Of a stretch of DNA of 64,000 nt, positions 6,698 through 64,000 are shown piece by piece. Under the pieces are notes generated by a model. The model made no database searches. It saw only the letters and a list, made by a program, of their open reading frames with translations, and was not told where the DNA came from. Within the stretch, counting starts at the first letter, position 1. Each line of letters opens with the position of its first letter. A program made the position numbers and the translations under genes. Where the stretch lies: assembly GCF_002878395.1 (NCBI RefSeq), contig NC_061112.1, positions 40,104,727 to 40,168,726 of the forward strand, read 5' to 3'. The stretch is from Capsicum annuum. Taxonomy: Eukaryota > Streptophyta > Magnoliopsida > Solanales > Solanaceae.

Positions 6698-8192
6698 TAT
6701 AACACTCAAACTACACCTCTTTAACGATAATGTAAGCGATCGTTGTCAATATATAACCCAACTAGGTTGGGGTCAAATCCTACAGGGAATATGGTGTGAA
6801 CTTAAGTTGTTTACAATTTAATCAACTGAAAGTTGGATGTTTCCCAAAATGGGGGTTTTGGAGATTAGCCAATAATTGTTGGTCACTTTAGTTTCAATGA
6901 TTGTAATCAAGAGTTTATGAAAAACTAGAATTATATTCACTATGGGTTTTAGTACTTGACAGATGCTAATAGTGATTCAAGATTCTCATAGTAGGTAGGA
7001 CAATAGATTATCTTTATTGAAGTTATGCCTAAATGTCTCTCGACTTATTTAAGAATTTAATCACCTAATCCTTTTGGACTTAGGAAATTCATATTTACTA
7101 ACCAGACATTACCTCAGGTTAATCAACCTTGTTACAGCGTCAATTATTAAATGGAAATTTAGTGTTTCCAAGTCCCTGTCCATAATTCACTTCCTACTAT
7201 ATTTTATTTCTTATCTCAATCAAATAAAGCAAGTGCTATCTATCGTTTGCACCCAATAGACAATAATTAAAATCTCGGAATTATCAAGGAGTCCTATTAC
7301 TTTAGAATCTTAAACACTTAGTATCTTACCAAGACTTCACCTATAGATCGCATAATTTGTGTTAAAGAGATTTAGCCACTCATAATGTAATAAGCAAAAA
7401 AACTAGATGTATTCATAATTTGAAAGATGAACTTACCATAAGATGAATAGTAACTAGTGATTCTTAGATTAGATCACAATAGAAATCCTAAAATATTGAT
7501 GAAAATCTCTTCAAAGTTAATTATTTTTCAAGCCAAGAAACTAGAGAGAAAAGTAACAATATATGTGTGTCCTAAAACAGGTTCCTCTCCTCTTAGAAAA
7601 CCCTAACTATGCTTTAAATATTTTACCCTAATTATGGAAACAAAATCACAGAGTTCAGCAATTTCTTGGATTAGATGACAATATTCATGACACCTTATCA
7701 GGAGTCTGACGACTTATCATAGATGTCGTCAGCTCCTCTTTGCTTTTGACATTTGCTGCCTTAGGCTGAGGATGAAGCATGATAGCTTATTAGATCTTTG
7801 ACGACTTATCACAGATATCGTCGATGATTTACTTCAGCTCTCATGTTCTGCCTTAGACTAACGACGATTACGACAGCTTATCACAAAGTTGATGGCTTAT
7901 GACATATCATCGTTACTTCTTGCTACTAAATCCCATTCTCTATTTAAGGCTGATGGTATCTCTGATAAGTTATCACATGGCTAACGACTTATCAGGAATG
8001 TCATCAGATATACTTCTCTTCTATTTGCTTTAGATTTCAACTCTTTTATTTCCATCCTTGTTGGTTCTCTTGCATCTTGGCTTCTGCTACAAAATCAAAG
8101 ATAAAATAATCAAAAATGACAAAAGTTGCTTAAGACATTGCAATTATTCTCAGTTAAAAGCCTCAAATGTGTTAGCATCTGCTCACACATCA
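6698..8192 (-). repeat. Athila-1 5' LTR, about 1.5 kb
   Basis: On the minus strand the LTR starts TGATGTG at 8192 and ends in GTGTTATA just before the primer site. It aligns along its length with Athila-2's 3' LTR (13030-14472). Matching segments include the start (GCTAACACATTTGAG against TTAGCACATTTAAG) and the end (GATTTGACCCCAACCTAG). It contains the motif array 7694-7994, a TATA-like TATTTAAA (7613-7620 on -) and leader sequence with TTAGGGTTTTC. Small frames in it (e.g. 7074-7259, 8058-8336) are not genes. Confidence 0.85.
7694..7994 (-). promoter_or_regulatory. Athila-1 LTR motif array, four 19-bp pairs
   Basis: On + the motif is CTTATCA in the wider context GACGACTTATCA. Starts are at 7694/7713, 7786/7805, 7877/7896 and 7969/7988. 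Every pair is exactly 19 bp apart and pair-to-pair distance is 91-92 bp. The array ends about 75 bp upstream (sense -) of the TATA-like sequence. The same layout occurs in Athila-2. Binding by a host factor is inference. Confidence 0.75.
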
Positions 8193-8204
8193 TACGACTT
8201 TAGG

Positions 8205-8377
8205 ACGTGGCCCTTACAATATATCCCTTATGGCAAGTCCCTCTTGACAAGGCCCTTATGGCTTGACCTTCTTGGCATATCCCTTTCTATATGTCTCTTA
8301 TGGCATGGCCTTTTTAGCATGGACCTCTCAACATAGCCCTTTCAACATGGATTTGTTGGCATGTCCCTCTTGGTATG
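8205..8377. repeat. Minisatellite, about 14-bp unit
   Basis: About 11-12 degenerate head-to-tail copies of a unit near TTGGCATGTCCCTC (ATGGCAAGTCCCTC, TTGACAAGGCCCTT, ATGGCTTGACCTTC and so on). Unit length is mostly 14 bp, range 12-16. It lies in the 3' untranslated region of the Tat element directly beside the Athila-1 insertion. Tat/Ogre 3' regions are known to breed tandem repeats. An open frame (8058-8336, +) across it is a by-product of the repeat. Confidence 0.8.
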
Positions 8378-10181: not shown

Positions 10182-10559
10182 TGATGTGCTCACCTTTTGT
10201 TAGCACATTTAAGACTTATAACGTGGAATAATTGTAAGTTCTTAAGTAACTATCAATGGAGGATTACTAATCATAGTGATCGCAACTCTAGTTTCTCTAT
10301 ATCATTGATTTGAAATACTATAGTTTAAGCTTTGAGTTCTAAGGAGAATTAAAGTGTTAATAACTTTTGTTCAATCATTAAAAAAACCCTATTTTATCTG
10401 TTCGTATCATTTGTTTGAATTTAACTTGTAGCTACAGCTTCAAATTAGTTTAATCACCACTAAAATTATTCCTCGTGGATTTGACCCTGACTCCAAAGTT
10501 GGGTAAATATATTGACGATGACTACCTTGCACTAAATTGATGTCTAATTGAGCGTTATA
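10182..10559 (+). repeat. Athila-2 5' LTR with ~1.15-kb internal deletion
   Basis: Starts TGATGTGCTCACC and ends in GAGCGTTATA just before the primer site. It matches the two ends of the 3' LTR (13030-13103 and 14253-14472) but lacks everything between. The join is at TCA (10253-10255), which occurs at both edges of the missing segment (13101-13103 and 14253-14255). The lost part holds the motif array and the TATA box, so this copy has no 5' promoter. Confidence 0.82.
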
Positions 10560-13029: not shown

Positions 13030-13219
13030 TGGTGTGCTGGCCTTTTATTAGCACATTTAAGACTTTTAACTTGAAATAATTGTAAGTTCTTAAGTAACTA
13101 TCATTGTTTTTTATTGTTTTCTCTTTGGTAGTGCAGGAAAGTCAAGATATAAGAAAACCAACAACAATGAAGACAAAGGAGGCAAATTTGGAACGAGTAG
13201 CCATAAAATTATAGTTGAT

Positions 13220-13546
13220 GACTTGTCTGATAAGTCATCAACTTGGTGAAAAGTCATCAGGACCATTGTCAGCCTTAGGCAGTGATCAGAAACTGAATTA
13301 GAAAAGTGACGACAATATTTATTAAGTTGTCAGACATCTGATAAGTCGTCAGGTTCGTCGCCAGCCGAAGGCAGCAACACTTGAAATAGGAAGAGGAGTG
13401 ACGACATGTTTGATAAGTAGTTAAATTCCTGATAAGCCGCCAGACATGTCGTCACTTTGAGGCAGAGAATAAGAAAATGGAGACATTTCTGACGACATGT
13501 CTAATAAGCTATCAGATCTCTGATAAGCCGTCAGATATGTCGTCAG
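13220..13546 (+). promoter_or_regulatory. Athila-2 LTR motif array, four 91-bp units each with a 19-bp pair
   Basis: TAAG cores of GATAAGTCGTCAG-like sites start at 13231/13250 (first base of the second changed), 13323/13342, 13414/13433 and 13505/13524. Every pair is 19 bp apart, with 91-92 bp between units. Each unit is flanked by inverted TGACGAC ... GTCGTCA elements. In unit 3 the arms GTGACGACATGT (13398-13409) and ACATGTCGTCAC (13444-13455) are perfectly complementary. The array ends about 50 bp before the TATA box. Confidence 0.8.
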
Positions 13547-13597
13547 CTAAAGAGAAAAATCTGAGTTTTTAATTTCAAATTTTTCTTAAGTTATAGA

Positions 13598-13606
13598 TAT
13601 AAATAG
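13598..13606 (+). promoter_or_regulatory. TATA box of Athila-2 3' LTR
   Basis: TATAAATAG, just after the motif array. Transcription would start about 30 bp downstream, near the GAGGGGGCTGAACACC stretch. In this position it could only drive transcription out of the element into the flanking Tat sequence. Confidence 0.6.
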
Positions 13607-18307: not shown

Positions 18308-20591
18308 TGTAACACCCCGAGACTACACCCTAGATGCCACACGGTGCTTACAGTCTCAAAAGACCACAAGCTAAATCATAAGTTGGTACCTACTGTGAGC
18401 ACTAAATAAAATAACAGGGATATGTGCAGAACTTAACTGAAAAATGCCATAAGGTTTTAATGACAAAAAAATCAATACTACATCATAGTTTTAAAATGTC
18501 TGAAACATACTATCAATACTAATAAAAAAACTGATAATAACAACTGAAAACTGACAATCTGTCTGTACTAATCTGAAAGCCTCTAAACTAACTAAATATG
18601 GAGTTGATGGGATAAGCCACCAACTAAATCCGATTTCCTAAATAACTACACTGTTGACATAACTTTATATAAGATAACCTGTCCTCAAAGAAAGAGTACA
18701 GACCATTGTTGTTGCTGCTGATGGACTGGAAGGTCTAGGTACTGTTAGGAGCCTAAGCGTCCGAACCTATGATATGAGATATCATAGCGCAAGAAACGAG
18801 TATGCAGTCAGTACTTTGAATGTACTGGAATAATAAATGAGTTTAGGCAGATATGAATGACTCATATGAATGAATAAATAACTAACTGAATAAATAGCAT
18901 GAGATAACTAATGTAATAGTATGCGAGGAAGCTATAAAATCTGAGAATGCATTACCAAACATATGACATGATACTGGAATAGTCTGTAAACTAAAATGTT
19001 GAAATACTGATACTGAACAAATAATAATCGTATGTCATCATCAAGAAAGCCTAAAAACTGAACTATAAACTAAAAACCTGGCTGAGAATGTGGGATATAT
19101 CATCTAACTGACATGCCCTAATTTGAGCTAATTAGGGTACAACCTGTAACCCTAATTAGAAAGGTATCAGTATCATGCCATGGGCACTAACACTGGCTAT
19201 GTAAATGCACTGAAGTGAAGTCCCGAAGGACTAAAGAGTCACCCTCTACTAGCAAGTTCTCTAGCAAGATGTATGTCAACCCTCAACTGGCAGGTTAACA
19301 TCTCTAACCTATGTTGGCTATGTAGTTCTAGAATGCAAGGACTGCTACTAAATGTTACACCTTCAACTGGCAGGTGAGCCCCCATCCCTAGGTTCGCTCG
19401 GTGCTAAATCCTACTCCCAACTAAACTTAGTCGGAATACTGAACTGATCTAAACATAGCTGATAGGATAACTGGCTGAAATAATAATACTCAATATATCT
19501 AAAAACCATTTTGAAAGTAATAAGACTAAGTAAACAGCTAAATTTTGGGTATTCATAACCACCAGGACTCGATAAGATAAACATTAAAGGCATACCAAAA
19601 CTTTAAAAGCATAATAAGTAGTTATTTCTCAAAATTCACCTCTTAGGCATTTCATCAAACACTTGAAATTCATGAACTTAGGCATAGGAATGATTGAAAC
19701 ATGTGGTAATACCATAATCATAACACTAAAACCATACATTAGGGAATTTAACATAGAATTTCATGATTCAAACATGTAAAGGCTACTTTCCAACTAAAAA
19801 CACTTGTAAACATCAGGTATAATCCATATTCTCAAAAGTTTCATGAAATTTACTCATTGTAAACATGTGAATTCATGATTTAAAACACAAAAATAGGTAC
19901 TTGGACTCCATGGTTGAAAAGAACCCATGGATAAACATTTAACATACCTTAATTGAAGAATTCATGAAGGTTCTTGGTGGTTTTATTGAAACTTGAACTT
20001 GTATCTTGAAGGGGCTAGGGTTTGTTCTTGAGAGATAATTACTTTCTTAGAGAGAAATTATGAAAAATGGGGCATATAATGCCCCTTTGAGGTTTTAATT
20101 TTGTGTTTTGGACGGATTTGGGTAAGGGAAAATGACAAGACTACCCTTGGGATATTAAAATTCGTAACTGGAATGCTGATTGGGCCTTCACCGCGATGTG
20201 CCAAAGCTGTCATCACAATTTTACTATAATGCGGTACAATCATAGTGACTTACTAAATCTGACAATTGTCATTTTGAACTTCACTCCGATGTGGTAGAAG
20301 ACCACCTCAAAGCACTACAATCGCGGTGAGCTGTAATTTTGCAAATCAAAATATGGTACAAACCTCATCTAAAAAATCCAAAACTTATCGAGACATGCTA
20401 CTTACACCCCTGAAAATAAATTAACTTACAAATTTTCATCTGGAGGTCGGGAAGGTCACTTTAAAAATTAACGAAGTTAAGAGGCCAAAAATAAAACTAA
20501 GTCTCCAACACTTAGCCAAATTTTCAAGCTCTAAGCTTCTTGTACATGTACTATGGGCTAAATTAAGCTAAGAAAATTATGAGGTATTACA
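18308..20591 (-). repeat. T1 3' LTR
   Basis: 2,284 bp, aligned over its length with 25655-27924. In sense (minus) order it has the motif array (20332-20187), a TATA-like ATTATATGCC (20080-20071), a leader with AACCCTAG, a TCAGT-rich stretch, and a three-segment inverted-repeat region (19116-19157). No gene. Confidence 0.92.
20187..20332 (-). promoter_or_regulatory. T1 LTR motif array, ~93-bp repeat
   Basis: TTCACCGCGATGTG at 20187 recurs as TTCACTCCGATGTG at 20280, 93 bp apart. Partner sites are TAATGCGGTACAATC (20227) and CTACAATCGCGGTGA (20315). The other LTR has the same layout: TTCCCCACGACATG at 27517, TTCACCACAACGCGG at 27608, and partners at 27552 and 27645. About 100 bp downstream in sense is the TATA-like site. 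Confidence 0.68.
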
Positions 20592-25650: not shown

Positions 25651-25654
25651 ATTT

Positions 25655-27924
25655 TGTAATGCCATGAGAGTACACCATGGATGCCAAACGGTACTTACAT
25701 CCCTGATGGACCACAAGCTAACCCATGAGTGGGTACCTACTGTGAGCACTAAATAAAATAAAAAGGACATGTGTAGAACTTAAATGAAAAATTATATAAG
25801 GTTTTAACAAGTAAAAAATCAATAATGTATCATAGTTTTAAAATGTCTGAAAAATACTATCAATAGTAATAAAACAACTGATAATAATGATGAAAAACTG
25901 ACTATCTGTCTGTACTAGTCTGAAAGCCTCTAAACTAACTGAATGTGGAGTTGATGGGATAAATCTCCAACTAACTCCGACTGACTAAATAACTGAATTG
26001 TTGACATAATTGCATATAAGATAACCCATCCTCAAAGGATAAGGACTAGCCATTATTGTTGCGGCTGAAGGACTTCAAGTTCTAGGTACGGTTAGGAGCT
26101 TGAGCATTCGAACCTATGATATGAGACATCATAGCATAAAAAACCAGTATGTTGTCAGTACTTTGAATGTACCGATATGCTAAATAAGGTTAGGCTGATA
26201 TGCATGGCTCATATGTATGAATAAATAACTAACTGAATAAATAGCATAAAATAACTAATGTATAGTATGAGAGGAAACTGTAAAAATTTAAGAATGCTTG
26301 ACCAGGCATATGACATGCTACGGGGATAGTCTATAAATCAAAATGCTGAAATATTAATACTAAACGACTAATAATTGTATGCCATGGTAAAACAAGCCTG
26401 AAAACGAAACTCTGAACTGAATACTGGCTGAGACTAAGGGAACTATTATCTAACCGACATACCCCAATATAAATCAATTGGGGTCCAACCTGTAACCCCA
26501 GTTGGAAGGGTGTTAGACCGTTCCACTGGTACTAACACTGGCTATGTGGATCCGTTGAAGTAAAGTTCAAAAGGACTAAAGATTCACCCTCTACTGGCAG
26601 GTGCTCTAGTGAGAACTGGCAGGTCAACATCTCTAACCTACGCTGGCTATGTAGTTCTGGAACACAGGGACTACTAATAAAGGTCACAACCTCAACTAGT
26701 AGGTGAGCCCCCTTCCCTAGGTTCGCTCGGTGCTAAATCCTACTTCCAAATAAACTTACTCTAAATACTGAACTGATCAAAACATGACTGATAGGATAAC
26801 TGGTTAAACTAATAATACTCAATATGTCTAAAAACCATTCTAAAAGTACTAAGAGTAAGAAAACAACTAAATTTTTTGTATTTATAACCCCCGGGACTCA
26901 ATAACATCAACAGTAAAGTCATACCAAAACTTTAACAGCATAATAAGTAGTCATTTTTCAAAATACATCTCTTAGGCATTTCATCAAACACTTGAAATTC
27001 ATGAACTTAGGCATGGGAATGATTGAAACATGTGTTAATAACATAATCATAACACTAAAACCATACATTAGAGAATTTAACATATAAATTCATGTTTCAA
27101 ATGTGAAAAGGCTATTTTCCAACTAAAAACACTTGTAAACATCATGCATAATCGAAATTCCTTAAAGTTTCATGAAATTAACTCATTGTAAAAATGTGAA
27201 TTCATGATTTAGAACACAAAAATAGGTACTTGGAATCCATGAGTGAAAAGAGCCCATGGATGAACATTTAACATACCTTAATTGAAGAATTCATGAAGGT
27301 TTTTGGTGGTTTTCTTGAAACATGAGCTTGAATCTTAAAGGTGCTAGGGTATGTTGTTGAAAGAAAACTACTTTCTTGGAGAGATATTATGAATAATGGG
27401 GTATATAACTCCCCTTTGAGGTTTCAATTTTGTGTTTTGGATGGATTTAGATGAGGGAAAATGACAAGACTACCATTGGGAAATTAAAATTCATAACTGG
27501 AACTCTGATTAGGCCTTCCCCACGACATGTCAAGGTTGTCATCATAATTCTACCATAATGCGTGCAATCGCGATACTTGCTAGAATCTGAAAATTGTCAT
27601 TTTGAAATTCACCACAACGCGGTGATATGACCACCGTTATAGCCACCACGACGCACCACAATCGCGGTAAGATGCTCTTTTGGAAATCCAAACATGGTCC
27701 AACCCTCGTCGGAAGAATCCAAAATAAACACGAGACATGCTAATTACACCCTTGAACATGAATTAACTTAAAAATTCATATCTTGAGGTTGGGAAGGTCA
27801 CTTTAAAAATCAATGAAGTTAAGAGTCCAAAAATGAAACTAAGTCTCCAATAATTTTCAGGTTCTAAGCCTTTTGTATATGTACTATGAGTTGAATTAAG
27901 CTAAGACAATTATGGGGTATTACA
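25655..27924 (-). repeat. T1 5' LTR
   Basis: 2,270 bp, TGTAATGCC ... ATTACA. It matches the 3' LTR (18308-20591) throughout with many substitutions. The motif array is at 27517-27670, with inverted-repeat segments at 26461-26503. Confidence 0.92.
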
Positions 27925-30834: not shown

Positions 30835-32981
30835 TGTAACGCCTCAGAAGTACACCCTGGACGTCACACAGTGATCAAGACTACAAAAAGTCCACCCTTC
30901 AAGCCTACTTAACTTGGAACTCATGAGAAGAGTAAACTAGCATATAAAATTTGAAGATAGTTGTATTAATCTTAACTGAAAACACTTTTGAGTCTAAAAA
31001 ACAAAACAGTCAGACAAGCCTCTACTACTAATAAGAGAACCACTAGAATAAACCCCAGTTGACCCAAACTTAACAAAAGACAAATAACTAAAATGCTTCA
31101 AAAATATCAAAGTCTAATAAATTGGGTCCTCAAACTATGAGGACTCACCAAAAGTCAAGATATAGGTGTTGATGCCTGTAGTCAACCATGCTTCTGAAAT
31201 TGAGCACTAGAACCTACATTATAAAAGAATGTAGTAGATAGACATATATGTGGGTCAGTACCTCTAGAATGTACTGAGTATGTGGGGATAAATGCATAAG
31301 TAAAACAATACTTAATATACTCATATACTTTGAAATAATGCATGCTAAGTGCAAATGACTCACATTGATCTTGGATAAAACGAAAACTGCAAAAATCATA
31401 AACATGAGTAACAAAGAATAAGTACAAACTTTGTGAGACATAACTCTTAGTTTTAAAGTCTTTACTTTTATTCTTTTTTGGGGAGGTTCTTCTTACCGAC
31501 ATAAACCATGTGAGCTATCATGCAGTCCAACATCTTACCCACGTTGGGGAGGCTGTTCTCCCTTGCTATCAAAATAGAACCTTAATCTTAGTGATCACTA
31601 TACTTAACCCATATTGGGAATTTAAACTATGGTGGCATGTAGTTCTGGGAAAAGTGACCTATGATTCATACCCAACTTGGTGTTAAATACTATTCCCATA
31701 TTACTTATATACTTATACTTTAGAAATCCACCTTAAAATAATATAAGGGTTAGTTTACTAGAAACTAATTATGCTTTTCTTTGATTCAAACCATAATTAA
31801 GGTAAACAAATGTGGATTTCAAGTCTTGTCATTGAATCAAAAGATCAACCTTTCTTGTAACTTAGTACTTAAACATAAGCGTTAAATCTTATACTTCCTT
31901 TCATATAATTTATAATACGATATCATGCTTGAAACTCAATTTGAACTCTTTAATCAACTTTTAAAAACAAACTCATGGTAGTTATAATCATAATAGAGAA
32001 TTCTTCAAGACAAAACACAAATATATGATAACAAGAATGCACTTTACTTCTTCAATCACATAGTAATTCCGTAAACTCAAAATAAAATAATGTGGGCATG
32101 AACCCTAGTTGCAAATCATATAACTTATGTTTTTAAACAAATTTTGGGCCAAAGAAAGGAAGAATGTCCTTGTTCATAAACCTCACATACCTTAATTGGA
32201 TAAATCCTTGAAAAGAACATTGAATTTGGAACTTAGCTCCTTGATTCTTGAGAGAAGACACTTGGATTTTGTTCTTGCGGATAGGGAAAGGGTTTTTGAA
32301 TCGTGAATTAAATGCTTATAGTTAAGGGAGTAGAATTTATGTGTTTAAAACCACCTTAATTCATTTAGGAGTGATTAGGGATGGTTTAGGGTGTGAAAAG
32401 ACTTTAACATCCTTGATTTAAGTCAAACGGAGAAACTTTTTGGCATAATGCTTTTGTGTGCGGCGCATGCCAATCGCATACCTTGGGTTGTGCAGCGCAT
32501 GCAAATTGCATACCTTAGGTTTTGAGGTGCATGAAAATCACACACTTTAGATTTTGCGGTGTATTCCAATCGCACACCTCATCCAATGGCCATTTGCAAT
32601 TGTCATGCGATGCACAATCTTTGCATGGTCATAACTTTTTGCTAGGGTATCGAATTAAGGAGAAATTGTTATTGTTGGAAATCTAATTTAATTATCTATA
32701 ATTTGGTGGGCCTTGAGAGGTAAAATTCCACATATGAAAGAAGTTATGCACATTCAAAGCTGACCCTTATGGAATCAAATATAAAATTTTGGCTGAATCA
32801 AAGGCTCTTAGCTCAACTTTGCTCTAAGTGATTCCTATGAACATTTTCGCCCCTCATAAGCACTCTTCTCACTAGGCTAATGATAAGGACACATGTATTC
32901 AAATGTAAACCATGGGATTAGAGTTTAATCACGTAGAGGAAACGGTTCAATTTCTATCTTAAGAAAATACGGGGTGTTACA
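30835..32981 (-). repeat. C: solo LTR, 2,147 bp
   Basis: Starts TGTAACGCC and ends GGGGTGTTACA, with flanking 5-mers ATATA (30830-30834) and ACATA (32982-32986), one transition apart. No gag or pol and no second LTR, so the interior was probably lost by LTR-LTR recombination. Orientation minus by comparison with T1. It contains the motif array 32461-32580 and the GTCTTTTCACACC-like block (minus, about 32395-32407). Minus frames 31182-31502 are not supported as genes. Confidence 0.82.
32461..32588 (-). promoter_or_regulatory. C LTR motif array, four 32-bp units
   Basis: GCAT/GTAT cores lie at exactly 32-bp steps (32465, 32497, 32529, 32561). Each is followed about 10 bp later by a second GCAT/CACA-like core and CATACCTT or CACACCTC. 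The first unit begins CGGCGCATGCCAATCGCATA. Confidence 0.75.
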
Positions 32982-46571: not shown

Positions 46572-49019
46572 TGTAAGACCCCAAACAATCCTAAGCTCAA
46601 TTCAGTCTTGTAAGCTTGCCATAGGGTCCCCAGACTTAGAAAATTCTAGCTAAGTATTCAGACTTAGTATAATTTTGGCCTTCGCAAGTTGGAAACCCTA
46701 TTTCACGACTCTTATGACCTTAAATTATGAATCTTTAGATTGATTCATGATCAAGAATGCCAGTAAGTATCCCCAAACAAGTTTCAAATTTTTTGGACCT
46801 CGTTTAGATCATGTTCAAGTGACCAAAATAGTGAGTCGATGCGATCTCGACGCGTCATGTCATCCATCGAGTCAAAAGATAACTTTTCCCTCAACTCAGT
46901 CTAAATTCCAGTGAACCAAAATAGACTCAACACGGTACATTGGCCATCGTATTGATGCTAACTACGCAGCGCATCGACAGTTCAGTTTTCAGTAATTAAA
47001 AAGTCGCATCCTTAGGGGTATTTGGGTCTTTTCCCACAACCTTCATCCCCCTAAAAACACGAAATTTAGCCTTCTTTTTTCAATATGCACTCATTATTTC
47101 AAAAATTTCTCAAGAAAAAAAACCCTAGGTGATTAAATTTCAAATTCAAGGCTCAAGATTCCACCGTTAATTTTCAAGAATTTAGCAACCAAGGTATGTC
47201 AAGTGTTCATCCAAGGGTTCCCTCCACCCTTGGAATCCAAGAAGCTCTTTTAAACTTCAAGTCGCTTGATTTGATGCTTTGCATGATTTGGATACAAGTG
47301 TATTAATGATTATAATGTTTATTGGGTTTATATTCTATGATTAAGTGCAAGATTTATGTAAAAACAACTATCATGTATGTAGTATCATGTGAATTCAAAT
47401 TAAAGCCTTGAAATTATGATGCTCATGTATTTATTAGTACTCTGTACACATACAATGCTTTCCAAGTATTTGATGAGTTGTTCATGAGAATAAAATAATG
47501 AAATTATATCATGATAGCATGTATTCAAGTTTATGTCATGTAAGTGTTTGCTAGAATGTCTCTATGAATGAATGATGATCAAGTAGTTATTTATCATGTT
47601 TCAAAATTGTGCCATGTCATATAATTTATGCTATCGACTCTCAGGATACTATCAATCATGTCACGATCATTAGTACTCTTATTCAGTTAAAGAACTTAGG
47701 AAAACTCAGTAGACTCAGTATCAGTCCAGTCTAGTTCTTTATTCAGTTCAGGCCACAGTAAATTCAGTAGTTAACAGAATTCAGTTGTATTCGTCAGTTA
47801 ATGGAACTCAGTTCAGTTTAGTTAGATAGTATAATCAGTAACAATTTAGTCAAGCCTAGTACGAACTAGAAATTAGTTCAGTGTCTATTCAGTTGGAAGT
47901 AGGATTCAGCACCGAGTTAACCCAGGGATAGGAGCATTCCTGCAAGTAGAGGGCTTGACCCTTAGTAGCAATCCCTGCGTTATAGAACTACGTAGCCAGT
48001 GTAGGTTGAGATATCTTCCTGCCAAATATTATGAGGGTTGCTATATCTCATTCGAGTTTTCCAGTTAGGGAGGGTTAATGAAAGACTTTTCTGTCAGAGA
48101 GGGTTAACTCATAGCTTGTCTTTACCCATGGCACGGTACTGACACCCTTCCAACTGGGGTTATAAGTTGGACCCCAATCTATTTAGAATAGGACATGTTG
48201 GTTAGATGATTACCTCCCATAGTCTCAGTTTTAGTTTTAATCTCAGTACAAAACTCAGTTCAGTTCTACAGATTCAGGACTGTCAGACACAGTCACTTCA
48301 TTCAGTACGGAACTAAGTATGGTTCCACAGAATTAGGAATATTAGATAAATTCATTTAGTTATCATAATTCAGTATTAGTATACTAAGATATCAGTTAAT
48401 CAGTATTTAGACTTAGTATACATTGTTATCACGATATCAGTTATAGTATATGTATTCATGCATGTACTCCCATTCTATTATATTCATGTCATTCAGTTAG
48501 TATTGTTCATGCATATGAACCCATGCATTTTAGCCTACCTCACTTAGCATACCAGTACATTCAAAGTGCTGACACATACTTTTCTCTTGCGCTATGATAT
48601 CGTAAATCATAGGTTCAGACGCACGGGCTTCCAATCATCCCTAGCAGTACAGATTTTCAGCAGTCAGAGTTAGTGGTGAGTCCTCATAATTCGAGGACAT
48701 GATTATTATTTTAGCATTTCAGTTTTATTTTAGTAGCCAGAGTCAGTTGGGGACTTATCCCATCAACTCCACATCTCAAATAGTTTAGAGGCTTTTCAGA
48801 CTAGAGTATTTTTAGATAGACGTTTCAGTTTTGGTGTTTCTATACCATATTTAGTTTTACTTTAGTATTTAACCTTATGGCATGTTTTCTTGCCTAATTT
48901 CTGCATATTACAGTATTATTATTCATTTGTTGTAGCAGGTACCAGTCATGGGTTAGCTTATGGTCCTTCGGGATTATAAGCACAGTGTAGCATCTGGGGT
49001 ACAAACTTGGGGTGTTACA
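46572..49019 (+). repeat. T3 5' LTR
   Basis: 2,448 bp. Motif array 46836-46980, then the block GGGTATTTGGGTCTTTTCCC (47017-47036), a leader with AACCCTAGGTG, then a long TCAGT-rich part (47640-48470) and inverted-repeat segments (48152-48192). No gene. Confidence 0.93.
46836..46980 (+). promoter_or_regulatory. T3 LTR motif array
   Basis: TCGATGCG (46836) and TCGACGCG (46847), then TCGAGTC (46867), and a second diverged unit ending in CGCAGCGCATCGAC (46966-46979). In the 3' LTR the unit start TCGATG is at 54402 and again at 54495, 93 bp apart. The 5' copy has lost about 13 bp in between. Confidence 0.6.
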
Positions 49020-49023
49020 AACT

Positions 49024-53868: not shown

Positions 53869-54124
53869 AATTAGTTTAGTCATGTACTCAGGCATCAACA
53901 TGCATATCCAGTATATAAGCTCAGCTTATCAGTAATCTCAGTCATGTATTCATGAATCATGTTCAGCTATGTAATCATGCATCAGATATGCATGTTCAGT
54001 ATGATAATTCAATTTATCAGTAATTTCAGTCATGAAATCATACTTCAGTTGTGCATGCCAAATGTCTAAATCCAATCTATCAGTATTCTCAGTTTAATCA
54101 GTCTCATTCGAGGAGGAATGTTCC

Positions 54125-54137
54125 CAAGGGGGAGATG
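54125..54137 (+). other. T3 polypurine tract
   Basis: CAAGGGGGAGATG immediately before the 3' LTR. Confidence 0.88.
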
Positions 54138-54138
54138 T

Positions 54139-56632
54139 TGTAAGACCTCACAAAATCCTAAGCTTAACTTAGTCTTTTAAGCTTCCTAAGGGGTCCCCAG
54201 ACGTAGAAAATTCAAGCTACGTATTCAGACTTAATATTAATTTGGCCTTCAAAAGTTGGCAACTCTATTTCACAACTTTTATGACCTTAAAGTATCAATT
54301 TTTAGATTGATTCAAGATCAGGAATGTCAGTAGGTGTCCCCAAATAAGTTTTGGATTTTTTAACCTTGTTTAGACCATGTTCAAGTGACAAAAATAGTGA
54401 GTCGATGCGATCTCGATACGTCTCACCATCCATCACGTCGTTCATTGCGTCAAATGGATAATTTTTTCCTCATCTCTGTGCAAATATCAGTGAATCGATG
54501 TTGACTCAACACATCACGTTGGCTATTGCATCAATGCCAATGACACGGTCTTTTGATCTGTGCATCAATAATTCATTTTTAAGTCATTAAAATGCCGCGT
54601 CCTAGGGATATTTGGGTCTTTTCCCACATCTTTCATCCCCCCAAAACATGAAGTTTAGTCTTCTATTTGTAACATACACTCATTATTTCATAAATTGCTC
54701 AAGATCAAAAAACCCTAGGTGATTAAATTTCAAATTCAAGGCTCAAGATTCCACCGTTAATCTTCAAGAATTTAGCAACCAAGGTATGTCAAGTGTTCAT
54801 CCAAGGGTTCCTTCCACCCTTGGAGTCCAAGAAGCTCTTTTAAACTTTAAGTAGCTTGATTTCATGCTTTCCATGATTTGGATCAAGTGTTTCCATGATT
54901 ATAATGGCGATAAGATTTATGTAAAAACAATTATCATGTATGTAGTATCATGTGAATTCATGTTAAAGCCTTGAAATTGTGATGCTTATGTGTTGATTAG
55001 TACTATCTGCATATACAATGCCTTCCTAGTGTTTGATGAGTTGTTCATGAGAATTAAATAATAAAATTATATCATGATAGCATATATTCAAGTTCATGTC
55101 ATGCAAGTGTTTGCTAAAATGTCCCTATGAATGAATGATTATCAAGTAGTTATTTATCATATTTCAAGATTGTGCCATGTTGTATAATTTATGCTATCGA
55201 GTCCTGAGGATATTCAATACCTGACAATTTAGCTGATTACCTAGAGCCATGGTCAGTCTTAGGATAGTATCAGTCATTTCACGATCAGTAGCATGTCACG
55301 ATCAGTATTACTCTCAGTAAGTTATAAAACTCAGGAGAAACTCAGTAGACTCAGTATAAGTCAAGGCCAGTTCAGTATTCAGTTCAGGCCTCAGTAAATT
55401 AATCCAGTTAATAGAATTCAGTAGTATTTTATCAGTCAATGGAACTTAGTGAACTCAGTTTAGTTCTGTTAGATAGTATAATCAGTAACAGTTCAGTCAA
55501 GCCTAGTATGAACTAGAAATCAATTCAGTGTCTATTCAGTTGGGAGTAGGATTCAGCACTGAGTTAACCCAAGGATGGGGGCATTCCTGTTGGCAGAGGG
55601 TTTGACCCTTAGTAGTAATCCCTTTGTTATAGAACTACATAGCCAGCAAGGGTTGAGATATCTTCCTGCCAGATATTATGAGGGTTGATATATCTCATTC
55701 GAGTTTTCCTGCCAACAAGGGTTGACGAAAGAGCTTCTTGTCACAGAGGGTTAACTCACAGCTTGTCTTTACCCGTGGAATGGTACTGACACTCTTCCAA
55801 TTGAGGCTACATGTTATACCCCAATCTATTTAGAAAGGGGCATGTCGGTTAGATAATTACCTCCCATAGTCTCAGTTTCAGATTTAGTCTTAGTATAGAA
55901 CTTAGTTTAGTTCTACAGATTGAGGAATGTTACAGTCACTCCGTTTAGTACAAAACTCAGTATAGTTTCACTAAATCAAGACTATCAGATATAGTCATTC
56001 AGTTATCAATATTAGTATACTCAGATATCAGTTAATCAGTATTCAGACTCTGTATCCATTGTTATCACTATCTTGCATATACTCTTATTCAGTTATATTC
56101 ATGTCATTCAGTCAGTATTGTTTATGTATATGAAACCATGCATTTCAGGCTACCTCACTTAGCATACCATACATTCAAAGTACTAATGCATACTTTTCTC
56201 TCATGCTATGATGTCTTATATCATAGGTTCATATACACAGGCTCCCGATCATCCCTAGCAGTTATAGATTTTCAGCAGTCAGAGTTTGTGGTGAGTTCTC
56301 ATTTTTCGAGGACATGATTATATGTCAGCATTTCAGTTTTATTTCAGTAGCCGGAGTTAGTTGGAGATTTGTCCCATCAACTCCATATCTTAGAAAGTTG
56401 AGAGGCTTTTCAGACTAGAGTATTTTCAGACAGATATTTCAGTTTTGGTATTGTTATACCGTATTCAGTTTTATTTCAGTATTGAACCTTATGGCATGTT
56501 TTCATCCTAATTTCCACATATTATAGTATTATTATTCAGTTATTTTAGCAGGTACCAGTCATGGGTTAGCATGTGGTCTTTCGAGATTATGAGCATCGTG
56601 TAGCATTCGGGGTACATACTCGGGGTGTTACA
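54139..56632 (+). repeat. T3 3' LTR
   Basis: 2,494 bp, TGTAAGACCTC ... GGGGTGTTACA. Motif units start at 54402 and 54495, the ATTTGGGTCTTTTCCC block is at 54609-54624, with TCAGT-rich sequence 55250-56110. No gene. Confidence 0.93.
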
Positions 56633-56637: not shown

Positions 56638-57145
56638 TTTGAGAGAAAAAGGAAGATGATTCCCCTATGCATGTCCTTAATATTGTTATGGACGACTTGA
56701 GTTGAGGGAAAAAGACTCAATTTCCCCTTGATTTCTTTAATCAAGAAATTGGATGAAAGACACGAACGTGTTGTGTCCCTTACTCTGAGGGAGAGATCAA
56801 TACGTCGCGTACCTTGCTCCAGGGGAGAGACCAACGCGCCGCAGACCCCATCACAATGGGAGAGACCAACGCACCATATACCTATCATGAGGGCTCTCTA
56901 TCCCCACTATCCAAACACCTCCTAAAACCCATCAGAAAACTCCAAAAACTTTCCCGAGACATACCTTTAACCTCCCTAAACATGAATCTACTCAAATGGG
57001 GTCGGGAAGGCTAAAAATAAAATCCTTAAAGTCTTGGGATATTGAAATTACTAAGTCCTCAACACTTAGTGTAACTTTCAAGCCTTGGACCCCTTAAGCA
57101 TGCAACTACAACTGAATCAAGCTTAGAATCTTATGGGGCATTATA
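56638..57145 (-). repeat. T2 5' LTR, outer piece with second motif array
   Basis: Continues the T2 LTR after T3. It carries the four-unit array (56763-56880) and ends GGGGCATTATA, where the outer end CA reads TA. Frames 56628-57014 on both strands run through the array and are not genes. Confidence 0.88.
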
Positions 57146-57150: not shown

Positions 57151-57744
57151 ACCCCTTTCTATGGTTGTTATATGTTGTTTTTGTGGTGTGAGGATGGTTG
57201 GCATAATTTTTGATGCAATTTGAAATGATTTGTGCGAGTTTGTGGTCTTTAGAGATTAAAAAGGCCTCATAGATGACTTTGGTCAACATTTATTATTTTG
57301 TGTATCAAATGGCAAAATAGACTATGCCAGCAGATCCAAAACGTCGATTTTGAGATGGTAGCATAGTAGGATTGATTTGATGGCTTTTGGATCTCATTTT
57401 GACCCTTGATTTGGAAATTTGTGAAATTTGTTCTCTAGGATCAATTTTGTGAAGACAATTTTTTTGAAAATCAAATATCGCCATTGAGTTTGACACATCA
57501 AACTTAGTCTAGTAGCATATTTTTTTCCTTCACGAGATTTCAAATGAATCTCGTACGGTGGATCGACAACTTTGCAACTTAGCAAAGTTGTTGATCCACT
57601 TGATATCTGGTGTAACAGCTTTAACAGCAAAAGGACTGCTAAATCAGTAGCCGCTTTAGCAGGTTAGGCAATGCTTTAGTGAACCCTTCCAGTCAGGGCA
57701 ACTACCGCTAAAATGGAGTTTTGACCGCTTCAGCAATCTCCGCT
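57151..57744 (+). repeat. Element A 3' LTR, piece 2, with motif array
   Basis: Aligns with sense-strand B (for example CATCGGATGGCAAAA-like and CCAACAAATTCGAAACG-like stretches against 57308-57350 here). From 57618 it holds GCTTTA/GCTAAA motifs at 57618, 57638, 57653, 57673, 57707, 57727 and 57742 (steps 20, 15, 20, 34, 20, 15). It is cut by solo LTR B at the last motif. Confidence 0.78.
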
Positions 57745-60317
57745 TGTCACAGCCTAAAAACTAAGGGTAATGATAGAAATTGTCGTGTCAAGCCTTGACA
57801 AGTAAGCAATCACCCAAACTGATATGAAATGGAAAAACAACACCTAAAACCCAAATCATGACTTTGAGAACAAAGTTGAACTTCAAATATACAACAAAAG
57901 CAGAAACATATATAACAATGATACTATAAATCACCCAAGTTCTAGTGTGACAATGTAAGAACCAACTATGTATTTCTTGAAAGTTAGAAATATACAACTG
58001 ATAGTCCAAAATGAAGCATAAATTTGTCTCTGAATACGAAACTAGACATAAACTATATAAGAAGGGGTAGGAGATCAATTCTGGGAGCATATATCAACTG
58101 CACCTTAAAATACTACAAGCACCACCTAAAACCAGCTACCATGCAGTGTATTCATGCCTGAATCTATACCAAAAGGGCATATTAGGGATGAGTACACTCC
58201 ACTTTTACTCATCAGGTATCATAGGATGACTAAGTAAAGTAGAAAATAAAGTATATAAAATACGCACTATGGATACGTCACTGCAATCAGAAAATGTCCA
58301 AAATGGTAGCCCACACTATCTCCACTAACAGTTCTAACATATAACATATTCACTAATTATAAGTACGGAAAAGAAATATAGAATTAATAAAGTGCAATCA
58401 TAGAATATGCATAATGTATGAAATGCAGTGAGAATAAGAATGATGATGTGATATGTCAGAGGTTGTCGCACAATCTTCGTATATACCTACCGAGCTCTAC
58501 TTTTGAGGCAGGACCCATGGGGGGTTCACAACCCATATACAATCCTATAACTAACACCAATACTAATCCAGTATCCATAACTCTTCTTCGGTAGAGGATT
58601 TTTAAAGACGTCATATTTTTGTCCAAAAAAATAGTATTTCCATAGTAGTATGCCTCATAAATGTATATGTGATATGAGGATGTAATACTCATAACCAAAC
58701 CAGAATGATAATATCAAAATCCAACCAATATACAAGCACGTAAGTCAAAAATCCACTTAATAGGGGAACTATCCATGATCTAATATAGTCTATGTACCAG
58801 TAGAGTAAAATATGCAATAATAAGCCATTAATACCATATAAATCCCAACTTAGGAAATTTCCACCAAGAAGAAAACAACCAAATATATAAATACGAAGCG
58901 AACAACATCATATAAGACCCTACACGGTCGCACATAGCAAATAACATCTCAAACCACTAATAACAATATCATAGGTCCTCATATGGGAACATAATAGTAA
59001 TAAAACCAATTTTATAACTAAAACCCATATCCATAATATGTTTTTATATTAGTATTAACTACCTATCCCAATCTGAAGAAGATTAAGCGATAACCTACCT
59101 CTGATGAAGAAAACCTAATCCAAAAGCCTCTAATCACGAAGTCTTTCCCTCACCAATGACCTCAAAACCAATTAAAAATAAAAATATAGAATTTGTAAAT
59201 CAAAAGAAAATCAATGATAAATATATTGCCTATTTTTGAGTTGGAATCAAAATAGACCTCTGAAATGGGTTTTCGAAACAAAGGATAGAAAGAAAATTTT
59301 AGTGCATAAGTACATTACCCATGATTTAAGGAAGCCATAGAAAAAAACCCAAGTAAAAATGAATTGAAATTGGGATTTAAATTGAAGAAATACTAATTTA
59401 GGCCTTTTGGGTCAAAATCTCCAAATTCCATATTTTAGATCATGTTTTAACAAGATTTAGTTGACAAGAATCAAAGAAAATAATTAAACTAGGGATTCAA
59501 AGCTTACCTAAGCTTGAAAATGGAAGAAATTTCCCAAAAACACTAAAGCTCGAACCTCTAAGTCTCAAAATGGTGAAAAATTGAGAAAAGCTAATTTTTT
59601 ACGAGGCTCAGTTGTGATTGCTTAAGCAACTAAATGGTCGCTTATGCGATCATCGCTTAAGAGTCCAAGTAATCACTTAAGCAGAAAGGGTCACCTCAGT
59701 AGGGACACTTAAACTGCCCTTCGGTCGCTTAAGCAATTGGGGGCACCTCAAAAGAAGCCTCTTGATCTCTTAAGCGACCATAAGTTTGCTTAAGTGACTG
59801 CCTTATTTGGTGATGCACCAACAAATTTGGAGTTTTCAAAGTTTCCAATGGGTCCCTCAATATTCATTCGGAATCTCTAGATTGCAACCGAGATATTCTA
59901 CTAGAATAATTCAACGTTCTAGACTTAATGGCAAAATTAGATTTTCGAAATAAATTTATTTTCACAAAATTAACCCCCTAGACCTAATTTTACAACTTTT
60001 AAAATTAGGAATCAAAATAAGATACAAAAGTTATAAAAACACACCAACAATGTTACCAACTCAAAATCAACGTTTCGAATTTGTTGGCGCAGTCCTTTTT
60101 GCCATCCGATGCATAAAATAATAAATATTGAAAAAAGTCAATGCTAGAGCCTTTTTAAACTTCAAAAGTTACAAATGCACATAAATCACACCGAAATATA
60201 TTAGAAATTATGTCAATCCTCCCCACACACCAGAATTATCACATAGTAACCACAGAAAGGGGTAAAATGATCAAATCACATAGAAATGAATAATTCACAA
60301 AAAATCAAGTCATTACA
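57745..60317 (-). repeat. B: solo LTR, 2,573 bp, same family as A
   Basis: TGTCACAGCC ... TCATTACA, flanked by CCGCT (57740-57744) and CCACT (60318-60322), one transition apart. No interior. Inverted, it aligns with A's LTR from start (TGTAATGACTTGATT) to end (CCTTAGTTTTTAGGC). It contains the motif array 59621-59794. Minus frames at 57788-58090 and 58456-58698 are not supported. Confidence 0.82.
59621..59794 (-). promoter_or_regulatory. B LTR motif array, four pairs exactly 20 bp apart
   Basis: CTTAAG-type cores of GCTTAAGC(G) start at 59621/59641, 59656/59676, 59708/59728 and 59769/59789. All four pairs are 20 bp apart. Two cores differ by one base (CTTATG at 59641, CTTAAA at 59708). The motif is its own reverse complement. 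The homologous place in A has GCTTTAGC-like motifs with the same 20-15-20 steps. Confidence 0.8.
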
Positions 60318-60322
60318 CCACT

Positions 60323-62255
60323 TTAGCAACCCGACACAATTGGGATAAACTGCAAAAGTATTCAACCTAAGCTTAAACAATGACTGCTTTAGCATTTAGA
60401 GTTGGATAGGTTTAAAAACTCTTTTCCCAAATTTTTATTTCATTTTAAGACTTTGAGCTTTAGATTAAGGGATTTTTGAGCAAATTCTTCTATTTTCAAG
60501 CATGGGTAGGCTCTAAATCACTATTTAAATTATTTTACTTCGATTATTGTCCCTTAAAACTCGTTAATTTATGATTTCAAAATGAGAATTTGGGGATTTG
60601 GGCCCGAAAGACCTAAAAAGGATATTCTTCGATTTAAGCCTCATTTTTAACCCATTTTCACTTGGATTTTATCCTATGGGTTCCATTAATCATGGGTAAG
60701 GTTTTTATAAATCAAATTTTTGATTTTACCCTTTCATCTAAAAAAACTCATTTTAGGGGTCTGTTTTGACCCTGACTTGAAAGTGCGCAATATGAATATC
60801 GTTAGATTCCTTTTAACATATAAATTTTATATTTGTATGTTGTAATTGATTTTAAAGCTATTCAAGAGGCAAAATCTCTACATTAAAGGACTTAAGGCTT
60901 GGTTTCTTACATTGTGAGGTAGGTTATGGATTTACTTTCTTCAGACTAGGTTGGGTAGTTAATAATTATATAAATGCATTCTTTGGGTATGGGAAGTCAA
61001 TCATGAAAAGTACCCATGTGGGGGCCTATATTTGTTATGTGTTGCCTGTATAGGATTTTATCTGATATTATTGGTATCTTTTATGCATTGGTTATTTCTT
61101 TCACGATAAAAATACCAAGTTGGGGGTTAATGTGATATTAATGGGGCCTTACATGTAAATTTATTCTTATAGTACATTGCTTATAATAAATCATGGATGA
61201 TTGACGTATTGAGTAGATTATGAGATCACGCGTGTATACATTGAATGGATTTGAAATCATCATATTGGTTTAGTTGTGAATATTTGCATCATCATATCAA
61301 ACATACATTCATGAGATATCAATACTATTAAGGAAATACTGATTTTGACAAAAATGAGATACTTTTAAAAAATCCTCTGTCGTAGCCCATGAGTCAGAGA
61401 TGAGATGTGGATATTATGATTGGGATTGAGTATTGAGAAAGTATATGGGTTGTGAACCCCTTATGGGTCCTACTTGTAAGCATTAAGGTTCGATAGATAT
61501 ATATAGAAGGCATGTGATAACCTTAGTCACATCACGTTATCATTACCATCAGCATTGCATTTCATACATTATGCATATTCAATTTTGTGCTTTTGTGATT
61601 AATTCGATGCATATCTATTCTATTTCTTTTATGTACCTGTCTTCTTACTTATGTACTATAATTATAATTGTTAGTGGAGATGGTGTAAGTTACCATTTGG
61701 GCTATAATTTTATGGCAGATGGCGTGCTCATAATATGTATTTATATACCTTATTTTGTAATATGCTCAATTGTCCTACGATACCTACTAAGTATAAGTGG
61801 ACTATACTTATCCCTACGGTGACCTTTTGGTGAAGATCTAGGTACGGGTGTGCTGCGCAACAACTGAGATCATGTGGTTGCTCATTAATACTTTGAGGTA
61901 TTGTCTATTCTATCCCTTTAGAGTCGACCTTAATCCTTCTCCTATCCAAATGATGTCTTTATTTTGTACTAGAGACAGACTTGTAGTTCTCACCTTTTAG
62001 TTGTATTTTTCAGTTCTAAGTTGTATTAGATTGTTCTTACATCGTGACACCAGGTTTTGGGATGGTTTATGGTATCATTTTTATTCAGATTTCTACTATT
62101 ATCATATATGTATGGTTTTTTGCTTCTCTCACGAGGTTTCGCCTTGCGAATTATGTTATGATATTCTTCTTACTTATCAGTTTGAATGATTGGCTTATTT
62201 GTCGAGGCTTAGCCATAATAAATTCCATCATGACCTTAGTTTTTGGGTCGTAATA
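60323..62255 (+). repeat. Element A 3' LTR, piece 3
   Basis: Continues the A LTR after B: one more motif (CTGCTTTAGCA, near 60381), CTCTTTTCCC (60420-60429), a leader, then text matching B inverted, such as GAGGTAGGTTATGGATTT (60915) and GGTTGTGAACCCCTTATGGG (61448). Ends about 62255. Hydrophobic frames at 61514-61822 and 62001-62253 are AT-rich chance frames. Confidence 0.75.
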
Positions 62256-62531
62256 GTTCTCTAATAACATTATATCTCAATTATTCTCTTTTATTAGGGT
62301 TAAGAATATGGACATAAGTTGCTTTGTAACTTCTATCATTATTCTACCTCATTACTATTGTAACCTCCAACATCCGAATTGAATAACAAGGATTCAATCT
62401 TGTGAAACCGGTGTATAGGAGAAATCTAAAAGCCTATACAAAATTTGACATCTCTAGTTTGGAAAGAAGGAAGATGATCAGGATCTCATGTAAAACAAAG
62501 TCCAAATTTAAGAGGTACTTACCTAGAGAAA
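62256..62531. other. Spacer between element A and LTR D
   Basis: 276 bp, AT-rich, no gene or repeat that I recognise. It may be the original insertion target of A and D. Confidence 0.5.
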
Positions 62532-64000
62532 TGTAATGACCCTTCTAGTAATTTTTCCATAATCTCGCTTATTTCTGCCGTTAGAGATATTTCATAGTTA
62601 TCCCGAGTCATTTATTACTTGTTAGAGCTGATAGTTTGGTTACCAGGCAATTCGTTTAGTTCTTAGAACCAATTCCTTATTTGGAAGTCTTCGCTGGTTC
62701 AAAATGGTCATCAAGTGAAAACTTATGTTAAATGATCTCGGATATGGATTCTGACTTTACCAGCAGTTTTGAAATATCAATTTTAGGCTAGATAGACCAT
62801 TAGTTCAGACCCCACTGCACCCGAGCTCATTTGACCCATTGGTCAAAAAGTCAAAAATTGGAAAATATGGGTGTAGGGCCCACACTTGGCCTAAATAGAC
62901 TTAGATGAAAAATCCAACATCACTAATGTGTCCCAAACATTGAATTTAGTAGGGTTACATAGCTTATTTGTGAAAACCAAAGTCCGAATAAGTTTTGGAG
63001 GTCAAAAACTGAACAGGGACCCTGGTGATCGCAGCCAGTGTTATGGAGATCGCATCCCTATAAAGCACGAATGTGGTACCTCTTTTCTTGGAGGGGTTAT
63101 AAATAGCCCCCTTAGTTGCGAAATAGGACATTTTCACCTCTCCTTGAGACCTAGAAACCCTGTAATGATATGTTAACTTCAAATTGAGTCTTGGGTGTAA
63201 GTTGAAAGCTTGTTTAACATATATTTTCATGATTAATAGTGGATTTAAGGTAAGAATCATTCATTTTCAAACTTTAATTTCTTGAATTTTTAACCAAACC
63301 CCAATGAGCTTGAGGGCATAATTTTAGCCTAAATAAGCTTGGTTTTTACTTGATTCTTGAGGGTTATGATTCCCTAATGGTGTATGCACATTGAGTTGAT
63401 CTCAAAAATATATTTTAGGTATGTGGGACCCACTTGGGGGATTTAGGTGTTGTTTTTTGATCCAAAGCACAACAATACAATATGGGTATCAATATTCTCG
63501 TAATAATGTATAGATTGTGTTTTCAATAGCTTGGCACCTTGAAAAGGCTTCTCGAAAGCAAAAAGTAAAGGTTTAGCAGGTAGTTGAGCATTAATCGATT
63601 TGAGGTAAGCTAGGCTTACTCTTTGTTAGATTGAGTTATATTTTGATACAATTGTGATATTTTGTTAGATTGGGATGGATTTTAAGAATTGGATTTATGA
63701 AATGCAAGACTTGGGTTAGTTGGATCATTTAGGCTATGCGAATCTTAGAATTGAAAAGTTTGACTTGGTTTCCTTTAACTTAGGTGGAATAGACTTCACT
63801 ACTCATGTTTAGCACGAGAATGCCTTTGAATACTCAATACTAAGTAAATTGCACTAGTTGCTCATACTTAGAGTAAGTTGGCCTTAGTTACTAATACTAG
63901 TGACGGTTGCCTTAGTTTAATTGGACTTCGTGAAGGTGCTTGTTTAAAATATCTACCTTAAGGCTTATGGTGGTTTCTACACATCTAAGAGTTGATTTAG
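62532..64000 (+). repeat. D: LTR (solo or 5'), runs off the window
   Basis: Begins TGTAATGACCC, like other chromovirus LTRs here. GATCGCA is at 63027 and 63048 (21 bp apart), then a TATA box (63099-63107), then leader text. No purine tract precedes it, so it is a 5' LTR or a solo LTR rather than a 3' LTR. The end is not seen. Overlapping frames (62928-63176 +, 62964-63260 -) are not supported. Confidence 0.6.
63099..63107 (+). promoter_or_regulatory. TATA box of LTR D
   Basis: TTATAAATAGCCCCC, a strong plant TATA context, about 50 bp after the GATCGCA pair. Confidence 0.6.

Follow-up and report, generated by a model that had tools for sequence, protein, structure and literature searches.

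Analyses of a stretch of 64,000 nucleotides from Capsicum annuum (NCBI RefSeq assembly GCF_002878395.1, contig NC_061112.1, positions 40,104,727 to 40,168,726, forward strand; hereafter the window) indicated, from self-comparison and flanks, that it consists of nested long terminal repeat (LTR) retrotransposon DNA. The subject of this report is the arrays of short repeated words that lie upstream of the promoter in the LTRs of these elements, for which eight families were distinguished: Athila-type (elements Ath1 and Ath2), T1, T2, T3, A, B, C and D (Table 1). The B LTR is interrupted twice, by T2 and by A, and for A, C and D the window holds no coding part. Matches to Pfam RVT_1 were found in pieces of T1, T2 and T3, and matches to SH3_Tf2-1 in pieces of T2 and, below the cut-off, of B; the tail piece of T3 gave no Pfam match. 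Relatives of the T1 reverse transcriptase (RT) were mostly plant proteins, Solanum and Withania included. We take the RVT_1 and SH3_Tf2-1 matches to be of Ty3 type, and the Ty3/gypsy elements of the window are presumably Tekay-like and Athila-like.

An earlier note on this DNA had described a short CG- or palindrome-rich motif, repeated at fixed steps just upstream of the promoter in most of the families. Repetition was scored in the first 1500 bases of each LTR as approximate 10-mer repeats in 200-base windows against dinucleotide shuffles. A peak at the expected place was obtained in the LTRs of A and C, both Athila LTRs, both T2 LTRs and the right T1 LTR (z from 7.0 to 30; Table 1), while D (z 3.8) and the left T1 LTR were weak and had higher peaks elsewhere, at base 1201 of the LTR (z 4.0 and 7.6, respectively). 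CpG clusters were found at the places of the arrays, with a CpG-poor leader next in most of the window LTRs; the TATA places of T1, T2, T3 and C were assigned by eye, and the Ath2 array ends ~45 bp upstream of its TATA word. Significant steps were obtained by autocorrelation for Athila (91/92, with 19 and 12), T2 (34/35), C (32) and A (20). For the remaining families the proposed steps fared less well: B gave a lag of 89 (P 0.005) with a local run that was not significant (P 0.13), the step of about 93 in T1 and T3 appeared as local runs in one LTR of each, with no significant step in the right T1 and left T3 LTRs, and the step of 21 in D, measured on a hand-picked 51 bp, reached a local P of 0.02 and a global P of 0.08. 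The 5' LTR of the Ath2 element (10182-10500) has lost ~1.15 kb, the whole array and promoter included.

Table 1. Elements of the window and positions of arrays and TATA words in their LTRs
Feature	Position	Strand	Description	Repetition
T1 element	18308-27924	minus	duplication TTAAG	
T2 element	37690 to ~57145	minus	duplication ATTTT	
T3 element	46572-56632	plus	inside right LTR of T2; duplication GTAAT	
A		minus	solo LTR nested within B LTR	
C		minus	solo LTR	
D	right edge of window			
Two Athila-type elements	left part of window			
Ath1 LTR U3 array	7668..8033	minus	GATAAG and GACGAC/GTCGTC words, 92-bp units	z 9.1, lag 92
Ath2 3' LTR U3 array	13203..13553	plus	91-bp units with 19-bp pairs	z 12.3; lags 91, 12, 19
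TATA word TATAAATA of Ath2	13598..13605	plus		
T1 left LTR array	20182..20347	minus	decayed	z 3.1; 93-bp local run P 0.02
T1 right LTR array	27515..27680	minus	CACCGCG / CGCGGTG-like words, both orientations	z 7.0
C solo LTR array	32452..32617	minus	~4 units x 32 bp	z 14
T2 left LTR array	39492..39637	minus	4 units of 34-35 bp, word GTTGGTCTCTCCC	z 10
T2 right LTR array	56753..56888	minus	LTR split by T3	z 7.7
T3 left LTR, homologous place	46826..46986	plus	CpG cluster, repetition not significant	z 0.8; local P 0.86, global P 0.075
T3 right LTR, homologous place	54393..54573	plus	81/93-bp local run only	z 0.8-1.4; local P 0.005, global P 0.31
B LTR array, first piece	57614..57744	plus	GCTTTAGC-type sites; cut by LTR A insertion	alone not significant
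B LTR array, second piece	60318..60400	plus	beyond A insertion	alone without excess
A solo LTR array	59613..59803	minus	GCTTAAGC-type sites	direct z 30, inverted z 16
D LTR pair of GATCGC sites	63025..63075	plus	21 bp apart	
TATA word TATAAATA of D	63098..63105	plus	TATAAATA at this place in 13/16 genome copies	

Since copies must not be chosen by their arrays, genome copies were found through the leader downstream of the array with a query that excludes the array. For each family 40 candidates were scored and the best 16-30 of them read, some of which are the two LTRs of one element; copies with a direct z of at least 3 were counted over the array and over a control stretch upstream of it. 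The counts were 25/30 against 1/30 in T1 (0/30 downstream; two copies are the LTRs of the window itself), 18/30 against 0/30 in T2 (1/30 downstream; one copy is the window's own), 13/16 against 1/16 in A (two of the 16 identical), 14/16 against 0/16 in C and 18/18 against 1/18 in B; among 16 genome copies of Athila, two array windows gave 14/14 and 15/15 against 0/14 upstream. An array before the promoter was thus found in six of the eight families (Athila, T1, T2, A, B and C), while D is weak and T3 not clear in the window. The length of U3 to the leader anchor was 382-444 in all 30 T1 copies, each with an array homologue. A scan for a TATA word near the array was positive in 15/16 copies of A and 16/16 of D, and in T1 (12/30) and T2 (14/30) such words lay at scattered places; the stretches of C and Athila ended before the TATA region in that scan. 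In both A and B a TATA-like word lies a dozen or so bases past the last site, as seen by eye and for A also by the scan. Sites like GGCGATCGCGG (at most three mismatches) numbered on average 2.06 per copy in the 16 copies of D, against 0.15 in shuffled sequence and 0 upstream, with none in 2/16, a count that is partly circular because the word was derived from the same copies. The possibility that young copies are without arrays was examined through terminal branch lengths in T1, where shorter branches tended to go with more array CpG (rho -0.36, P 0.052); the correlations with inverted z (rho -0.33, P 0.07) and direct z (rho -0.12, P 0.52) were weaker, and the test speaks against that possibility in a way that is at most suggestive.

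Analysis of the words indicated that each family has its own. The leading words were TCACCGCGA in T1, GGTCTCTC in T2, CGCTTAAG in A, GCTTTAGC in B and TCTGATAAG in Athila. In the T1 arrays TCACCGCGA / TCGCGGTGA occur in either orientation, 32 times over 20/30 copies; the T2 arrays carry TTGGTCTCTC without inverted symmetry, the A arrays GCTTAAGC, and the B arrays GCTTTAGC/GCTAAAGC plus GCTTAAGC; in Athila GATAAG occurs 2-11 times per copy and CTTATC not once in 14/16 copies, with GACGAC/GTCGTC around. An inverted z of at least 3 was found in 21/30 copies of T1, 14/16 of A, 18/18 of B and 13/14 of Athila (over 350 bases), while the counts were 0/30 in T2, 4/16 in C and 0/16 in D, so that richness in palindromes was not confirmed as a general trait. 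Short perfect palindromes were discarded as a common unit for the window as a whole (12 against 10.4 in shuffled sequence, not significant, 12 window arrays pooled); 12-mer palindromes with one mismatch numbered 18 against 10.4 in the same arrays (P 0.013), six of them in A. CpG per kb in T1 was 60 in the array, 14 upstream and 5 in the leader (observed/expected 1.07, 0.45 and 0.19, respectively), and in T2 38, 13 and 6; array and upstream values were 42 and 9 in C, 42 and 20 in A, 39 and 21 in B, and 22-25 and 8 in Athila.

When the genome copies were pooled by family, the main periods were 34 bp in T2 (z 20.6), 35 in A (z 8.5), 34 in C (z 7.8) and 35 in D (z 7.1), with shuffle maxima of 3.4-4.0, and in B 34 (z 8.7, shuffle maximum 3.7) and then 35. 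The pooled periods of T1 and Athila were 95 and 92 (with 19), and secondary steps of 20 and 15 were found in A and of 21 in D. Regular spacing exists, as had been proposed, the main period of T2, A, B, C and D being 34-35 bp. Self-comparison and flank alignment showed that A, B and D are mutually related and that T2 is related to C, so that these are not five independent cases. The proposal that the steps place sites on one face of the helix was not supported for the main periods: those of 34, 34, 35, 35, 92 and 95 deviate from whole 10.5-bp turns by a mean of about a quarter turn, as chance would give, and the only steps near two helical turns are the secondary ones of 19-21 bp. A post hoc P of 0.004 for helical phasing over 11 steps mixed weak and hand-picked steps, and phasing as a general rule was dropped.

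Alignment of the window copies revealed that the flanks on both sides of the array are homologous between T1, T2 and T3 (z 7-21), while those of C align to the three downstream (z 6.5-12.8) and hardly upstream (z 1.0-4.6), the best local flank identities being 67-77% over 72-257 bases. The arrays of T1, T2, T3 and C showed no alignment between families in these copies (z -0.2 to 1.0), from which alone T3 was judged. With genome copies of T1, T2, C, A, D and Athila, up to 100 copy pairs were compared for each of the 15 combinations of families; the arrays were unalike in every combination (mean z -0.6 to 1.0), and copy pairs with an array z of at least 4 made up at most 4% per family pair, while the leaders of T1 and T2 gave a mean z of 10.8 and were all at or above 4. 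Shared array ancestry between families was ruled out at the sequence level by this 15-pair comparison, and the suggestion that words turn over quickly at a fixed place is supported between T1, T2 and T3, and for C clearly on the downstream side. Between copies of one family the identity of the array was also below that of the two flanking parts, at 0.76 against 0.81 and 0.90 in T1 and 0.67 against 0.76 and 0.85 in T2.

Within the related families A and B the cores of the words could be followed from copy to copy. The A query gave 15 distinct copies, 13 of them with a single core type each (nine CTTAAG, four CTTTAG/CTAAAG) and two mixed, and the permutation P for core clustering was below 1 in 20,000 (duplicate copy L137 included in that run). 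Core types were mixed in 15 of the 18 copies found with the B query. Over all 33 copies the cores still cluster by copy, with a mixed-pair statistic of 116 against a permuted mean of 219.6 and minimum of 165. At the four homologous A sites nearest the TATA word the types differ at the core centre, as they do by definition, and spacer identity came to 0.49 among copies of the main type, 0.68 among those of the other and 0.48 across types; the alignment was guided by the cores, which inflates the conservation of core over spacer. A single clean core switch in A is weakened by the mixed B copies, and we read the A/B series as a graded change of a putative binding word. The insertion point of LTR A lies inside a site of the B array (CCGCT^TTAGC, 57740-57744 / 60318-60322; duplication CCGCT/CCACT), and a preference of nested plant LTR elements for palindromes is mentioned in the consulted part of a review (PMC12477314). 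Just upstream of the B array, at 57558-57599, there is a near-perfect hairpin with arms of ~18 bases (fold z down to -6.7 in 120-base windows).

Seven contaminant retrotransposon loci were found in bacterial genome assemblies, of which three (L002, L004 and L005) were informative, with readable U3 and promoter and an array upstream of a TATA-like word (z 20.5, 38.5 and 12.7, respectively). In L004, whose RT is closest to Asteraceae, a 19-bp CpG unit occurs 5.6 times and ends ~13 bp before the TATA-like word; in L002 a 51-bp unit occurs 4.4 times and ends ~10 bp before TATAAATA; in L005 a 63-bp unit occurs ~3 times roughly 300 bp upstream of the TATA-like word, as seen by eye. The tandem units of all three show 91-93% matches. 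Two of these three arrays (L002 and L005) have no CpG, and CpG content is not supported as a shared rule. L001 ends before the promoter, and L003, as far as read, is without that LTR part. Among plasmids a single distant RT turned up, in a Wolbachia record, and none of the scans of viral contigs (T1 RT, alignment A1, a 15-base Athila word, two primer-site patterns) yielded a relative by tblastn. The contigs L001-L006 are eukaryotic-looking retrotransposon sequences in bacterial assemblies of a public species-level collection, for example an Asteraceae-like element in an assembly labelled Labilibacter sediminis, and L006 has at 3307-3500 a short LTR-like stretch, perhaps fungal, in which GCAAGCGTGA / CACGCTTGC are repeated around a TATA-like stretch (by eye).

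Taken together, place, repetition, family-specific words, CpG above that of the flanks, lack of array similarity across families, the 34-35 bp period and the clustering of A and B cores indicate that the structure is real in most families, and on the sequence evidence a regulatory role is likely. The arrays are probably promoter-proximal clusters of like putative binding sites in the U3 of Ty3/gypsy elements, whose words are rewritten while their place is kept; our weighing rests on the genome copies. The word of each family would be the target of one or a few DNA-binding proteins with sequence specificity, presumably of the host, acting as dimers where the words are palindromic (T1, A and B); the bound protein would activate the promoter, and the word could be replaced so long as the place before the core promoter was kept.

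Several observations weigh against this interpretation. The T3 LTRs of the window are without significant direct repetition at the homologous place (Table 1) and the right one has stronger repeats downstream; the B window copy gave a direct z of 0.2, and its inverted z of 4.6 covers the hairpin upstream of the array. Direct repetition in D was found in 3/16 genome copies in a 175-base window and 4/16 in a 100-base window (0/16 in the control). The LTRs of T1, T3 and L002 are repetitive elsewhere too, two of the outside arrays are without CpG, the mixed B cores blur the switch of words, the conservation of A cores is inflated, and the shared 34-35 bp period may have been inherited in two lineages. 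No single binding factor could be named for the arrays. The two LTRs of an element show 71-73% identity inside the arrays and 82-90% outside, and the inside-outside comparison of substitutions, which had been proposed as a check, showed that arrays diverge faster mostly through base context (124 differences against 95.5 expected), with the excess in CHH and A/T sites. With base context accounting for most of the divergence, no constraint on inserted copies is evident from LTR pairs, which were dropped as a measure of constraint and say nothing of function. Sites in CG context change alike inside and outside (0.42 and 0.45), so inserted copies decay in arrays as elsewhere; the decay being mostly as base context predicts, the CpG-rich arrays of old copies suggest that the source elements carried more CpG.

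Other explanations were weighed against the same data. On a model put forward for the Sireviruses of maize, palindromic clusters might form folds within read-through RNA, become a source of small RNAs and label the element for silencing; Sirevirus palindromes are reported, in the material at hand, to be small-RNA hotspots. The array does hold the lowest-energy 120-base window of the first 1400 bases in the right T1 LTR, both T2 LTRs, A, C, Ath1 and Ath2, with the lowest fold z in Ath2 (-6.7), Ath1 (-4.8) and A (-4.3). No such minimum is found in the left T1 LTR or either T3 LTR, however, the strong fold of B lies just upstream of its array, and inverted symmetry, absent from T2 and D and rare in C, is not the common factor. 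In maize, moreover, hairpin-forming regions concentrate in Copia LTRs and Ty3 elements are generally without such a peak, according to the portion of PMC10760457 seen, and we regard this explanation as unlikely. Slippage could also have made unselected tandem repeats with CpG as a by-product, which would agree with the array being the fastest-changing part of U3 and leader between copies of T1 and T2, with the closely matching tandem units of the three outside loci and with the repetition elsewhere in T1 and T3. Such a neutral minisatellite seems improbable in view of the fixed place in 30/30 T1 copies, a period of 34-35 bp common to families without array similarity, and CpG near expectation in the T1 array between depleted flanks; slippage would not place the A sites in spacers as unlike as those of the main type. 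An array that recruits a factor, perhaps element-encoded, to keep the promoter unmethylated, as VANC does for VANDAL, would fit the clustering of A and B cores by copy and the CpG kept in arrays, and VANC targets are themselves short, arrayed and tandem-evolving, with variant types per subfamily (PMC5735166, in the part consulted). No candidate protein turned up, although no search aimed at one was made, and CG sites change in arrays as they do outside, so that we give this explanation little credence.

Extending the favoured reading of the arrays as binding-site clusters, we offer as a speculation, on the doubtful side, that plant Ty3/gypsy LTRs have a standing pre-promoter slot in which spacing (34-35 or 92-95 bp) outlives the words and each lineage rewrites its word across numerous sites as the binding factor changes. 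This would be a recurrent arms race or partner swap, which would have arisen independently also in Ty1/copia Sireviruses and DNA transposons. If the arrays are binding platforms, factors particular to each family would drive part of the most abundant DNA in plant genomes, and a simple pull-down for each family could identify them. The A/B series, from palindromic GCTTAAGC through mixed arrays to directional GCTTTAGC on related promoters, would show binding specificity changing at many sites and would offer a test of whether hosts or elements set the pace.

A splice-donor-like NAG/GTATGT or NAG/GTAAGN was found in the leader of T1 (27276, right LTR, minus strand), T2, T3, C, A, D, L002 and L005, and in T2, A and D its score ranks second within the part of the LTR that was scanned. 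Its position falls within a 5-base range in 26/30 copies of T1 and a 4-base range in 23/30 of T2, and it is absent from the scanned stretch in 3 and 6, respectively; the leader is possibly spliced.

U3 tandem boxes of the Tnt1 type have reportedly been studied by promoter assays. With these and other such boxes the arrays have in common that they are tandem repeats of U3 with a link, here putative, to transcription control, while the hosts there are Ty1/copia elements; tandem repeats in the U3 of Tnt1 appear in the excerpt of PMC3601003 available to us. The VANC targets of Arabidopsis VANDAL elements, described in part of Hosaka 2017 (PMC5735166), resemble the arrays as clusters of short motifs in non-coding DNA with variant types and fast turnover; in the A and B copies core variants cluster by copy, with 13/15 of A pure and 15/18 of B mixed. 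They differ in that VANDAL elements are DNA transposons and encode a known protein that binds the targets and removes methylation.

The closest likeness is to the Sireviruses. Thirteen of these Ty1/copia elements have family-specific palindromic repeated motifs that form CpG islands upstream of the TATA box, with a CGG-CCG core in all but one (Bousios 2010, PMC2829016, in the sections seen). In both cases short repeated motifs that differ per family, CpG-rich and palindromic in the Sireviruses, lie shortly upstream of TATA or, in the present families, of its likely place, and by eye T1 TCACCGCG/CGCGGTGA share CACCG...CGGTG arms with maize CACCGGACTGTCCGGTG. The CGG-CCG core was not found in the leading words of T1, T2, A, B and Athila, of which T1 alone comes near. 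The hosts are not Sireviruses, T1, T2 and T3 (RVT_1) and T2 and sub-cut-off B (SH3_Tf2-1) being read as Ty3-type; palindromes are not general, a 34-35 bp period recurs, and words differ between homologous flanks. The claim of the earlier note that no description covers such arrays across clades was partly wrong, because the Sirevirus clusters were already described in PMC2829016, while the spread into Ty3/gypsy elements seems to be new. Arrays of this kind were thus already known; within the full-text literature searched, what appears to be new is their spread over Ty3/gypsy families, the exchange of words where flanks are homologous, the recurring period of 34-35 bp and the series of A and B copies.

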